Assembly: GCA_030168575.1 (NCBI GenBank)
Contig: CP115555.1
Location: forward strand, 496,001-560,000
Reading direction: 5' to 3'
Source of the DNA: Methanomassiliicoccales archaeon LGM-RCC1
Lineage (GTDB): Archaea; Thermoplasmatota; Thermoplasmata; Methanomassiliicoccales; Methanomethylophilaceae
Length of the DNA stretch: 64,000 bases
Part shown: one piece after another, positions 5,297 through 31,385 of the stretch
Layout of the letters: the number at the start of each line of letters is the position of its first letter
How positions within the stretch are numbered: position 1 is the stretch's first letter
Program-made: the position numbers and the translations under genes
The notes under the pieces: model-generated
Told to the model about the DNA's origin: nothing
The model's database searches: none
The model's input: the letters and a program-made list of their open reading frames with translations, nothing else

Positions 5297-5445
5297 GCAA
5301 TACCAGGTGGGGGATTTCAGTCGTATACTTAAATCAGAGGATACGATGGAACTCCCGGGCGGAGTTTCAGAGTGACTGGCCATCACGGGCGGACCCGTGC
5401 TTCAGAACAGGATTCCGGCACTCTGTCATCCCTGGGAGATATCCC

Positions 5446-28496: not shown

Positions 28497-28793
28497 TCAA
28501 TCCCTATCTTCATAGATATCATTATTCGTCATCCATTTGACGAAAAACATGGTATGATCGTTGGAGAAATCCCCTCTGACCGAATAGTATCCCATATCCT
28601 GAGGCATATCCTTGTAATAGCAGCGGAGATCACCTTCCGGACAATCTATGGAGAAGGTGTACCCTGTGGAAGAGGTCCTTATGTCATGGACGATCCCCGA
28701 ATAATCATATTCTATATTGTTCTCGTCAGAGAAGTAGGCGAACAACGATATCAGCAATATCACTGATAATCCCAAGACCATGTTCCTATCCAT
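28497..28793 (-). CDS. small membrane-anchored protein of unknown function
   Basis: 98 residues: an N-terminal hydrophobic helix (NMVLGLSVILLISLFAYF) and an external-looking domain rich in aromatic residues (YTFSIDCPEGDLRCYYKDM). It lies between TiaS and the left origin box. No family is recognised; a membrane-anchored or secreted small protein is the most that can be said. Confidence 0.5.
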   Translation of the reverse strand: MDRNMVLGLSVILLISLFAYFSDENNIEYDYSGIVHDIRTSSTGYTFSIDCPEGDLRCYYKDMPQDMGYYSVRGDFSNDHTMFFVKWMTNNDIYEDRD

Positions 28794-28858: not shown

Positions 28859-28901
28859 ACCCCCACCCCACCGTTTCCACTGGAACCGGAAAAGAGGGTA
28901 T
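28859..28901 (-). other. origin recognition box, left copy
   Basis: This 43-bp element is the exact reverse complement of the element at 30511-30553. Its core on the minus strand reads GGTTCCAGTGGAAACGGTGG and is followed by a G-rich tail, matching the layout of archaeal origin recognition boxes bound by Orc1/Cdc6 (a TTCCA-n-TGGAA dyad, then AAC and a G-string). It lies 358 bp upstream of the orc1/cdc6 start. Confidence 0.8.
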
Positions 28902-28912
28902 GTACCCTTTTT

Positions 28913-29002
28913 TCAGGAGAAAATCATGTTGAGAACGTACAGGACACCGATGAATGCGATGATCCCTGCGACGCAGAGTCCGATTGTGATCCAACCTTTC
29001 AT
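28913..29002 (-). CDS. 29-residue single-helix membrane microprotein
   Basis: The ATG at 29002 follows GAGGTAAC in good spacing and opens a 29-codon frame (MKGWITIGLCVAGIIAFIGV then LYVLNMIFS) ending in TGA. It is almost wholly hydrophobic, one transmembrane helix. A short stem and T-run follow directly and merge with the left origin box. Short length makes this tentative, but the ribosome site and helix periodicity support it. Confidence 0.4.
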   Translation of the reverse strand: MKGWITIGLCVAGIIAFIGVLYVLNMIFS

Positions 29003-29188
29003 AAGAGTTACCTCTGGAGATTCGTTATCGATGATGATGATATAAATGCTTGTGATTGGATGAATATCGTAAGTTTAAGAATCTAAAATTGATAATCGGT
29101 AAAACATCCATTTTATAGCAGCTTTTGATTGCAGAATCCCTATTCCTGAAGAAAGGATCATTCTCTTAACAGGAACCTTTTGAAAATC

Positions 29189-29197
29189 CTTATATCT
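29189..29197 (+). promoter_or_regulatory. TATA box of orc1/cdc6
   Basis: CTTATATCT preceded by GAAAATC lies about 65 nt before the ATG at 29260, in the AT-rich origin region. The Orc1/Cdc6 gene probably has a leader, and the half-site near 29242 may let the initiator bind its own leader region. Confidence 0.35.
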
Positions 29198-29259
29198 ACG
29201 ATACCTCTTACAGAGGAAAGAAAACGACAAAGCGGTATAGGCCACTGGAGAAATCTGAC

Positions 29260-30498
29260 ATGACTGAACCAAATATCTTCAATCAATATCTCAACAAGAG
29301 AAAGGATCTGGTCAGATACAAGAAATACCTCCAGACCGACTACATACCGGAATCGCTTCCTCATAGGGACGATCTCCTTAATCAATTGGTCGAGATCATA
29401 GCTCCTTCACTGAACAAGATCAAACCTTCGAATATATTGATTATTGGTCAAACAGGAACAGGAAAGACTGTAACAGTGAATTTCCTAGGAAAGGAACTGA
29501 AGAAGGCCGATTCTGCAGAGGAGAATGTATCTCTCATCTACATCAACTGCGAGATAACGGATACCCCATACGGAATCCTCTACAACATCGCGAACACGAT
29601 CATAACCGATTCTTCCAAGAAAGTCCCTTATACCGGATGGTCGGTCGATAAGATCATCGAAGAACTGAAGAACTACATGGAAGAACAGAAGAAGATCTTC
29701 ATCGTGGTCTTGGATGAGATCGACAGATCGATAAACAAGAACGGTGACGATGTCTTCTATTATCTGACTTCTATCAACAATTCTCTGAAGGAATCCAAGA
29801 TCTCGGTGATAGGGATATCGAACAATCCCAAGTTCACGGATCTCCTCAGTTCCAAGATAAAAAGCAGACTCTGCGAAGAGAAGATAATCTTCCCTCCCTA
29901 CAGTGTGGAGGAGATCAACGATATCCTTCTCGAGAGGGCGAACAACGCTTTCGATGAAGGCATCCTCGATGTCGGGGTCATCCCTTACTGTGCGGCAATC
30001 ACCGCCCAGGACGGAGGAGATGCTAGAAGGGCTATCAGTCTTCTCAAGCTTTCAGCCGAGATCGCGGAGCGCAACGGGGATCCCGTCATCACAGAAGCCC
30101 ATGTCAAATCGGCTAAGAACAAGTTCGAGATGGATGCGGTCACTGAGATCGTGAAGAAGGCATTGAACGATCAGTTGAAGATCGTCCTCATGAGCATCAT
30201 CAAGATAACAGAGAAAGGTCAGAAGACCATGATCACCGGAGAGGTGTACAGCTCTTACAAGGACATCTGCGAGATCATCGGTTACTCATCCTTGACTCAG
30301 AGAAGGGTCGCGGACATGATCTCCGAACTGGACATGCTAGGTCTCATCTATGCAAGGGTCAAATCCTACGGCCGCAACGGACGCACCAAGGAGATAGAAT
30401 TGAATCTTTCAAGGGATATCGTCGACCTCCTGAAAGAGGATGAGCTCTTCAAGGATCTCGTCAATTATAAGCCTCCGAAACAGACCACTCTGATCTGA
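29260..30498 (+). CDS. cdc6: Orc1/Cdc6 replication initiator
   Basis: 412 residues. An AAA+ domain with Walker A GQTGTGKT (near residue 64), Walker B VVLDEIDR (near 150), sensor 1 IGISNNPKF and a sensor 2 region GGDARRAISLL is followed by a C-terminal winged helix (TQRRVADMISELDMLGLI). The protein binds origin recognition boxes and loads MCM. It lies between two such boxes in inverted orientation. Length and domain order are complete. Confidence 0.95.
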   Translation: MTEPNIFNQYLNKRKDLVRYKKYLQTDYIPESLPHRDDLLNQLVEIIAPSLNKIKPSNILIIGQTGTGKTVTVNFLGKELKKADSAEENVSLIYINCEITDTPYGILYNIANTIITDSSKKVPYTGWSVDKIIEELKNYMEEQKKIFIVVLDEIDRSINKNGDDVFYYLTSINNSLKESKISVIGISNNPKFTDLLSSKIKSRLCEEKIIFPPYSVEEINDILLERANNAFDEGILDVGVIPYCAAITAQDGGDARRAISLLKLSAEIAERNGDPVITEAHVKSAKNKFEMDAVTEIVKKALNDQLKIVLMSIIKITEKGQKTMITGEVYSSYKDICEIIGYSSLTQRRVADMISELDMLGLIYARVKSYGRNGRTKEIELNLSRDIVDLLKEDELFKDLVNYKPPKQTTLI

Positions 30499-30510
30499 GG
30501 AAAATCACCA

Positions 30511-30553
30511 ATACCCTCTTTTCCGGTTCCAGTGGAAACGGTGGGGTGGGGGT
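30511..30553 (+). other. origin recognition box, right copy
   Basis: A 43-bp exact inverted copy of the element at 28859-28901, beginning 12 bp after the orc1/cdc6 stop codon. The core dyad TTCCAGTGGAA, the AACGG extension and the G-run are all conserved. Its facing orientation relative to the left copy defines an origin core of about 1.6 kb. Confidence 0.8.
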
Positions 30554-30554
30554 G

Positions 30555-31385
30555 TCAATAATAGCAGTACTCGTCGAGTTCCTTCTGATCCTTTGCGAGC
30601 TTCTTCCTGAGGTAGAAGATGTCGTAGCTGTAGATCAGTCCGATGACAGTGGCGAACAGCATTATGAGGCAGATGCTGGAGTTGGGAACATGGCTGAGAT
30701 ATGCCCTCTTGTTCTCCGTCATGTAGACCTTCAGCACGCCCATCCAGGGAAGCTCCATTATCGGCACGGATCTGATGTCGTCGTTCCCTATGGGGTGTGA
30801 TATGATCCCGACGGCCTGGTCGAAATACGAGTTGGAGACAGGGTTGTCACCCATGGTCAGGTATCCGCTCTGCTTCCCAAGCGAATCCAGGTTGATACTG
30901 ACCGTCTTGTTGGATTGGGTTATCCCCTGGAAGGTCAGTGTGCCGGAAAGGGACAGATAATTGTTCGAACCGGTGCAGGACCATGATCCCTTGTAGTCGG
31001 CCAGAGAGGGTGCGCTCCATGTGCCGTCCTTAGAGTTGTAGTCCAACCAGATTATGGCGCGGTGGATCACGGGGTTCACATCGTCGCCGCGGTTGTACAC
31101 GATGACGTGACCGTAATCTCCGAACATCTTCAACCCGGAGACCGTGCCCTCCACATAGCTCTGTATATCGACCTTGGAAGGCGCTTGGATGATCATCACA
31201 TCCCCGGTGTCGATCACACCTATCTGAGAAAGGTCGTTGTCGTGCTGCATGCTTGAAGAGGTGACAACGCTCAAAGGGGAGTCCAGTCCGGATACCGTGA
31301 AGATGCCGATATAGCCTGCTCCGAGTATAATGGCGAGTATGCCGATGACAGCGATGAGGATCCTGCTCTCCCTTTTCACGTGCAT
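30555..31385 (-). CDS. signal peptidase I, archaeal type
   Basis: 276 residues with an N-terminal membrane helix (LIAVIGILAIILGAGYIGIF), then the serine motif VTSSSMQHD (near residue 44), the His motif VIHRAI (near 108) and MGDNPVSN (near 180), and a second membrane helix before the C terminus. The Ser/His/Asp set is that of S26B peptidases, which cleave signal peptides from exported proteins. The final Tyr-rich tail is cytoplasmic. Its stop codon lies directly beside the right origin box. Confidence 0.85.
   Translation of the reverse strand: MHVKRESRILIAVIGILAIILGAGYIGIFTVSGLDSPLSVVTSSSMQHDNDLSQIGVIDTGDVMIIQAPSKVDIQSYVEGTVSGLKMFGDYGHVIVYNRGDDVNPVIHRAIIWLDYNSKDGTWSAPSLADYKGSWSCTGSNNYLSLSGTLTFQGITQSNKTVSINLDSLGKQSGYLTMGDNPVSNSYFDQAVGIISHPIGNDDIRSVPIMELPWMGVLKVYMTENKRAYLSHVPNSSICLIMLFATVIGLIYSYDIFYLRKKLAKDQKELDEYCYY

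Follow-up and report, generated by a model that had tools for sequence, protein, structure and literature searches.

Archaeal initiation models are built on pairs of origin recognition boxes (ORBs) that are separated by 0.1-0.3 kb and place two helicases on the intervening DNA. In Sulfolobus oriC1, mutating either ORB kills the origin, and ORB-bound Orc1-1 directs MCM between the boxes (PMC12141716); in Haloarcula oriC1, both ORBs and both G-strings are needed, and a G-rich inverted repeat just inside the boxes is an enhancer (PMC3936714). ORBs have also been described in both flanks of some haloarchaeal genes (Wu et al. 2012, PMC3528665) and on both sides of orc1/cdc6.1 in 'Ca. Methanomethylophilus alvus', at 78-159 in inverted and 1977-2066 in forward orientation (Table 2 of Borrel et al. 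2014, PMC4153887); enclosure and arm identity are not discussed in that paper, and its table holds no distal hflX-side ORB for M. luminyensis. Here, a related arrangement is described in the Methanomassiliicoccales archaeon LGM-RCC1, within a stretch of 64,000 nucleotides (contig CP115555.1, positions 496,001 to 560,000; the window), where a perfect inverted repeat encloses the orc1/cdc6.1 initiator gene. Relatives of the window, together with published data on ORBs and gene content, likewise point to the family Methanomethylophilaceae of this order. Judged from its sequence, this locus is very likely the replication origin. As the published ORB tables of 'Ca. M. alvus' imply the same layout, an origin of this kind, with ORBs enclosing orc1, is already known.

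The repeat has arms of 43 nt at 28859-28901 and 30511-30553, which are 100% complementary and have 1609 nt between them, exactly the facing identical copies around the initiator gene that an earlier reading of this DNA (the original prediction) had reported; the second-longest inverted pair of the same region has 23 nt at 78%. Each arm is laid out as ATACCCTCTTTTCCGG-TTCCAGTGGAAAC-GGT-GGGGTGGGGGT, running from an inner pyrimidine flank through the ORB dyad and a spacer of 3 bp to a double G-run. With the left arm on the minus and the right arm on the plus strand, both G-runs point outward from the enclosed gene. Both carry the TTCCA-n-TGGAAA dyad followed by GGGG of the consensus in PMC4153887, and by sequence each arm is an archaeal ORB; the proposed reading as origin boxes agrees with this fit to the archaeal and Methanomassiliicoccales consensus and with the enclosure of a conserved orc1/cdc6.1. 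The elements are as follows:

28859..28901, minus strand: left extended ORB, 43 bp, G-run leftward (outward), from the repeat search; conserved in 29/31 family loci
28873..28885, minus strand: TTCCAGTGGAAAC dyad of the left ORB (genome 524873-524885)
28859..28869, minus strand: double G-run GGGGTGGGGGT at the outer end of the left ORB, in invariant or near-invariant columns of the family table
28886..28901, minus strand: left-arm inner flank ATACCCTCTTTTCCGG, with partial conservation at columns -13 to -5 over 28 genomes
29260..30498, plus strand: orc1/cdc6.1 initiator gene, 412 aa, from a profile match; closest solved structures 2qby_A and 2v1u
30511..30553, plus strand: right extended ORB, 43 bp, G-run rightward (outward), 12 bp past the orc1 stop codon
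30527..30539, plus strand: TTCCAGTGGAAAC dyad of the right ORB, from the genome-wide dyad search
30543..30553, plus strand: double G-run GGGGTGGGGGT at the outer end of the right ORB, read from the sequence and from the G-run search

The product of the enclosed gene is Orc1/Cdc6 (TIGR02928, E 5e-120). Among solved structures it comes closest to Sulfolobus Orc1-1 (2qby_A, E 2e-91) and to Aeropyrum ORC1 (2v1u, E 1e-83), both determined on origin DNA.

Within the window, the 22-bp core of the repeat matches only the two arms at up to 3 mismatches, and it has no match in 100 dinucleotide shuffles. Over the whole genome (1,664,211 bp, a single contig), no site outside the two arms comes within 1 mismatch of TTCCAGTGGAAACnnnGGGG; the G-run GGGGTGGGGG has one further occurrence, and the dyad TTCCANTGGAAAY has two, both without the G-run. 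With no further full copies in the genome, the objection that the repeat might have many unrelated copies fails. A third perfect dyad TTCCAGTGGAAAC, also lacking the G-run, lies at genome positions 561999-562011 (+) (L007), 36 kb from the origin. The repeat is no assembly artefact, because the independently assembled sister metagenome-assembled genome (MAG) L112 (SUTB01000002, 96.8% identical DNA) has the two arms at the corresponding places, its right arm differing by a single mismatch and its arm-to-arm identity being 42/43.

Most features of an oriC1-type origin are found at this locus: an adjacent, orthologous orc1/cdc6 initiator gene in conserved synteny, at least two ORBs in inverted orientation, an AT-rich candidate unwinding region (29031-29130, its position varying among relatives) and a switch in strand composition (fixed-site p = 0.005, scan p = 0.05). 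The compact spacing of 0.1-0.3 kb without a gene is absent, as the boxes stand 1609 bp apart with orc1 inside; such spacing is a usual and not a strictly defining trait, since 'Ca. M. alvus' and some haloarchaeal genes are also double-flanked by ORBs. Regarding the skew, the check called for by the original prediction places the cumulative minimum at the locus, the lowest value within the window falling at 29-30 kb. Genome-wide, the cumulative GC skew of 40 sampled stretches of 10 kb (24% of the genome) bottoms at 0.46-0.50 Mb, close to the locus at 0.525 Mb, and reaches its peak at about 1.34 Mb, about half a genome away. When the chromosome is split at orc1, one part has a mean skew of +0.0126 and the other of -0.0144 (fixed-site permutation, p = 0.005). 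The GGGT skew and the third-position skew of the sampled stretches were uninformative. The skew thus supports one bidirectional origin at the orc1 locus, without being a mapping.

For the conservation of this arrangement, an Orc1 protein search was run over sixty genomes, the window's own and 59 relatives. An outward ORB pair surrounds orc1 in 29 of the 31 loci from the same family, Methanomethylophilaceae (including L044, counted by eye, as its box has a one-base shift), and the contigs of the remaining two end too early. One outward ORB lies about 250-475 bp upstream of orc1 and the second 10-430 bp past its stop codon, in an order that is constant where readable: TiaS, ORF98, ORB, a small open reading frame (ORF), orc1, ORB, ORF276 and usually then dCMP deaminase. 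In all family loci with readable neighbours, orc1 keeps one and the same orientation with respect to TiaS, ORF98 and ORF276. A column table from 28 genomes resolves a family-wide extended box, made of a nearly invariant dyad, GGGG, T, GGGGG and a partly conserved inner CCCTTTTCC. It was claimed that identity over 43 bp far exceeds a typical box; because the table shows the extended box in 28 genomes, the length beyond the minimal box is, on these alignments, mostly a family trait (the G-string and the inner CCCTTTTCC), and what is peculiar to this lineage is only that the match is perfect along the full 43 bp.

The two arms also resemble each other more than their counterparts in other species. 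Over the 43 bp, arm agreement is 0.80 within a genome versus 0.72 for the same arm between species, and in the variable core and spacer columns it is 0.91 versus about 0.73; the mean within-genome identity of 34.8/43 is the level found between species with about 90% identical Orc1. In near-invariant columns, a rare variant is shared by the two arms in 13 cases and confined to one arm in 10, against an average of 0.98 and a maximum of 8 shared cases when arm partners are permuted, a test that ignores phylogeny and base composition and hence shows pairing, not mechanism. By these patterns the arms evolve in concert, and their ancestry is shared since at least the family's age; such paired variants mean that origin sites can evolve in concert with one another. 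Strong selection or gene conversion, the two causes initially put forward for the identity, gain support from this concerted evolution, and both gene conversion and joint selection by the species' own Orc1 fit it. Conversion is favoured because the inner flank, weakly conserved between species, is fully identical between the arms here (16/16) and in L030.

Outside the family, an outward ORB pair lies upstream of orc1 in 22 loci from five other Methanomassiliicoccales families. Of these pairs, 21 have hflX (TIGR03156 over cut-off) between boxes that stand 1.3-2.2 kb apart, and orc1 just outside; L049 (by Pfam) and L050, L054, L056 and L058 (by eye) have a PCC-domain gene between the boxes too. 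In six species of one genus (L065-L070), the hflX-enclosing ORBs are always separated by 1460 or 1461 bp, of which 122-123 bp are intergenic. Whole-genome searches with TIGR03156 recover HflX over cut-off in 21 of 24 genomes of the order's other families and in not one of the 36 from the window's family; by this profile evidence, the nearly universal GTPase is lost throughout Methanomethylophilaceae. G040 also has no HflX over cut-off, and its ORB pair, which resembles the ORBs given for 'Ca. M. intestinalis', is merely 272 bp apart around DNA of 72-81% AT. Among the control archaea, five haloarchaeal loci show an outward pair of the same polarity 180-208 bp apart upstream of orc1, and the more distant archaeon L113 has one 313 bp apart, so that the 1.3-2.2 kb typical of the order stands against 180-313 bp in the controls; the boxes of the window are separated by five to ten times the distance known from the archaea studied.

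What stays constant across the loci is the outward pair, and the enclosed DNA changes. By parsimony over the sampled families, without a tree, hflX inside would be the older state, and the swap of the enclosed gene with hflX loss provides an evolutionary series: hflX inside, nothing inside, orc1 inside. A tentative generalization, which we regard as possible but on balance doubtful, is that Methanomassiliicoccales have a wide gene-enclosing origin in which outward ORBs 1.3-2.2 kb apart form a pair whatever gene lies inside, the gene having been swapped at hflX loss and conversion keeping the arms identical. If true, initiation would proceed from two loading sites set apart or through a loop, and replication would copy the initiator gene before any other DNA. 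A gene-enclosing pair of the same polarity in an order of gut methanogens offers a natural test of short-range box cooperation. A literature search of papers outside subscription yielded no description of the hflX-enclosing pair, of wide spacing as a rule or of concerted arm evolution.

Between the boxes, the following elements accompany orc1, the promoter and mini-ORB assignments being putative:

29031..29130, no strand: AT-richest 100 bp between the boxes, candidate duplex-unwinding element, 73% AT, 99.7th percentile of the window
29190..29199, plus strand: TATA-like element (ttatatctac) of the putative orc1 promoter, read from the sequence
29208..29220, plus strand: candidate degenerate mini-ORB TTACAGAGGAAAG, about -50 of orc1, by eye against better-preserved -51 sites in relatives
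29240..29252, plus strand: candidate degenerate mini-ORB GGCCACTGGAGAA, about -20 of orc1, by eye against the -20 sites of relatives
28913..29002, minus strand: conserved 29-aa hydrophobic small ORF (MKGWITIGLCVAGIIAFIGVLYVLNMIFS) inside the origin, family-wide, with a GAGG-type ribosome-binding site and codon-position-3 variation

Mini-ORBs occur at about -130 to -90, -51 and -20 of orc1 in many relatives and are degenerate in this genome; a further candidate at 29007-29018 was rejected, being more likely the ribosome-binding site of the small ORF. This ORF, between the left ORB and orc1, encodes 25-29 aa (MKGWxxIGxCxxGI...) and is recognisable, with a ribosome-binding site, in nearly all family members. 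It is probably a real membrane microprotein gene within the origin, because the differences among 26 intact copies concentrate at codon position 3 (5.1/2.7/11.1 at positions 1/2/3).

Regarding the neighbours, ORF98 (28497-28793, minus strand) encodes a short protein with an N-terminal membrane segment, conserved beside the left ORB across the family, and ORF276 (30555-31385, minus strand), to the right of the origin, shows weak similarity to the ORF that follows orc1 in Halolamina; neither has a match in Pfam or NCBIfam. Since a review places a signal peptidase in the oriC1 neighbourhood (PMC4010727), ORF276 may be a diverged signal peptidase. The Halolamina loci L117, L119 and L121 (about 5350-5390) have an ORB-like site with outward G-run right after the orc1 stop, plus the classical upstream pair, and such sites weaken the idea of the right box as an invention of Methanomethylophilaceae. 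As for Orc1 itself, the rumen-type MAG 'Thermoplasmata archaeon SIG9' carries a protein 99.8% identical to that of the window over the aligned part. The genome has a second, diverged orc1 paralogue at 1.554 Mb, with no ORB (up to 4 mismatches) within about 3 kb; a second origin there was rejected on this absence and on the negative GC-skew score at that site. The absence of an ORB at the second paralogue is likewise reported for other members of the order (PMC4153887; PMC5011839).

Taken as a whole, the analysis makes it reasonably probable that the locus is a single oriC1-type chromosomal origin, working as one bipartite origin of outward high-affinity Orc1/Cdc6.1 sites around orc1. To the observed sites, polarity, conservation, uniqueness, skew minimum and concerted evolution, this scheme adds Orc1 binding, MCM loading, a site of strand opening and a need for both boxes, which we infer. 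Each 43-bp arm would be a polar high-affinity site, its dyad read by the winged helix of Orc1/Cdc6.1 and its G-run by the AAA+ side, and Orc1 on each outward box would direct an MCM hexamer inward, by analogy with the oriC1 of Sulfolobus and Haloarcula. Strand opening would most likely take place in the AT-rich DNA that separates the left box from orc1, the two boxes acting as one bipartite oriC1 stretched around a gene, and the likeness of the arms would be kept by gene conversion and/or shared selection for the same Orc1. Several observations weigh against this scheme. The skew scan with free position is only borderline (p = 0.05), and, at 1.6 kb, the boxes are much further apart than the 130-313 bp of the analogue origins. 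Across the family the pair encloses anything from 1559 to 1990 bp, which speaks against a rigid complex of fixed geometry over both boxes. No AT-rich DNA adjoins the right box in this genome, whereas in six relatives the AT maximum lies directly downstream of orc1, so the melting side is not conserved.

This asymmetry in AT content, with the AT-rich stretch adjoining the left box only, leads to another reading, to which we give about a quarter of the weight: the left box, the AT-rich DNA and the promoter mini-ORBs would form the whole origin, and the right box would help or regulate, titrating Orc1 or setting origin efficiency. The mini-ORBs upstream of orc1 in most relatives, the ORB-like site right after orc1 in Halolamina and the negative-regulatory ORB cluster directly downstream of cdc6E at Haloarcula oriC2 (PMC3936714) are in line with it; however, that cluster has 11 ORBs, unlike the right box, which is a single top-quality site, letter-for-letter equal to the left arm and always in opposite orientation, and the pair of the other families keeps its geometry around hflX, pointing to a function of the pair. 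It is improbable that the arms are mainly autoregulatory, with Orc1 at both ends looping or repressing orc1 and the origin proper merely nearby: orc1 is indeed enclosed and degenerate mini-ORBs overlap its putative promoter, but 21 of the 22 other-family loci enclose hflX rather than orc1, and between the boxes of G040 lie only some 250 bp of AT-rich sequence. An inverted repeat that is perfect over 43 bp and surrounds one gene would also be expected of recombinase-type repeats on an invertible or mobile segment carrying orc1, an explanation that the data contradict and that deserves hardly any credence, as the orientation of orc1 relative to TiaS, ORF98 and ORF276 is constant in the readable family loci, its position is conserved, the genome holds two copies only, and there is neither a direct repeat at the outer edges nor a recombinase inside; occurrence in both orientations or in several places, which would mark an invertible element or transposon, was not found. 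Compatible with the bipartite origin is the suggestion that the 43-bp perfection reflects recent gene conversion only, without function beyond the ORB core. The weakly conserved inner flanks that are nevertheless identical here, and the match already lost in the sister strain, speak for it, but the conservation of columns -13 to -5 and of the second G-run across 28 genomes means that part of the extra length is under selection; the enhancer repeat of Haloarcula also sits at the equivalent inner position (PMC3936714). We hold conversion alone to be unlikely, though worth keeping in mind.

Compared with the systems described so far, the bipartite origin proposed here is closest to that of 'Ca. 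M. alvus', which belongs to the same order and shares the ORBs flanking orc1/cdc6.1 and the GGGGGT extension, but has two ORBs per side instead of one identical 43-bp copy. Haloarcula hispanica oriC1 (PMC3936714) likewise lies next to orc1/cdc6 and a signal-peptidase-like gene; the window boxes share the polarity of the haloarchaeal controls and the same kind of outer G-string, and their inner purine/pyrimidine flank occupies the place of the Haloarcula enhancer, whereas the haloarchaeal boxes stand about 180-210 bp apart upstream of the gene, with no gene inside (five control loci). At Haloarcula oriC2/cdc6E (PMC3936714), ORBs are found on both sides of an orc1/cdc6 gene, but the 11 ORBs in 722 bp downstream are a negative regulator, in contrast to the single symmetric partner box of the window. 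Finally, Sulfolobus oriC1 (ORB3-DUE-ORB2, DUE being the duplex-unwinding element; PMC12141716) has inverted polar Orc1-1 sites around an AT-rich region, both needed there, and differs from the window in its 130-bp region, the lack of a long G-string and its extra ucm motif.
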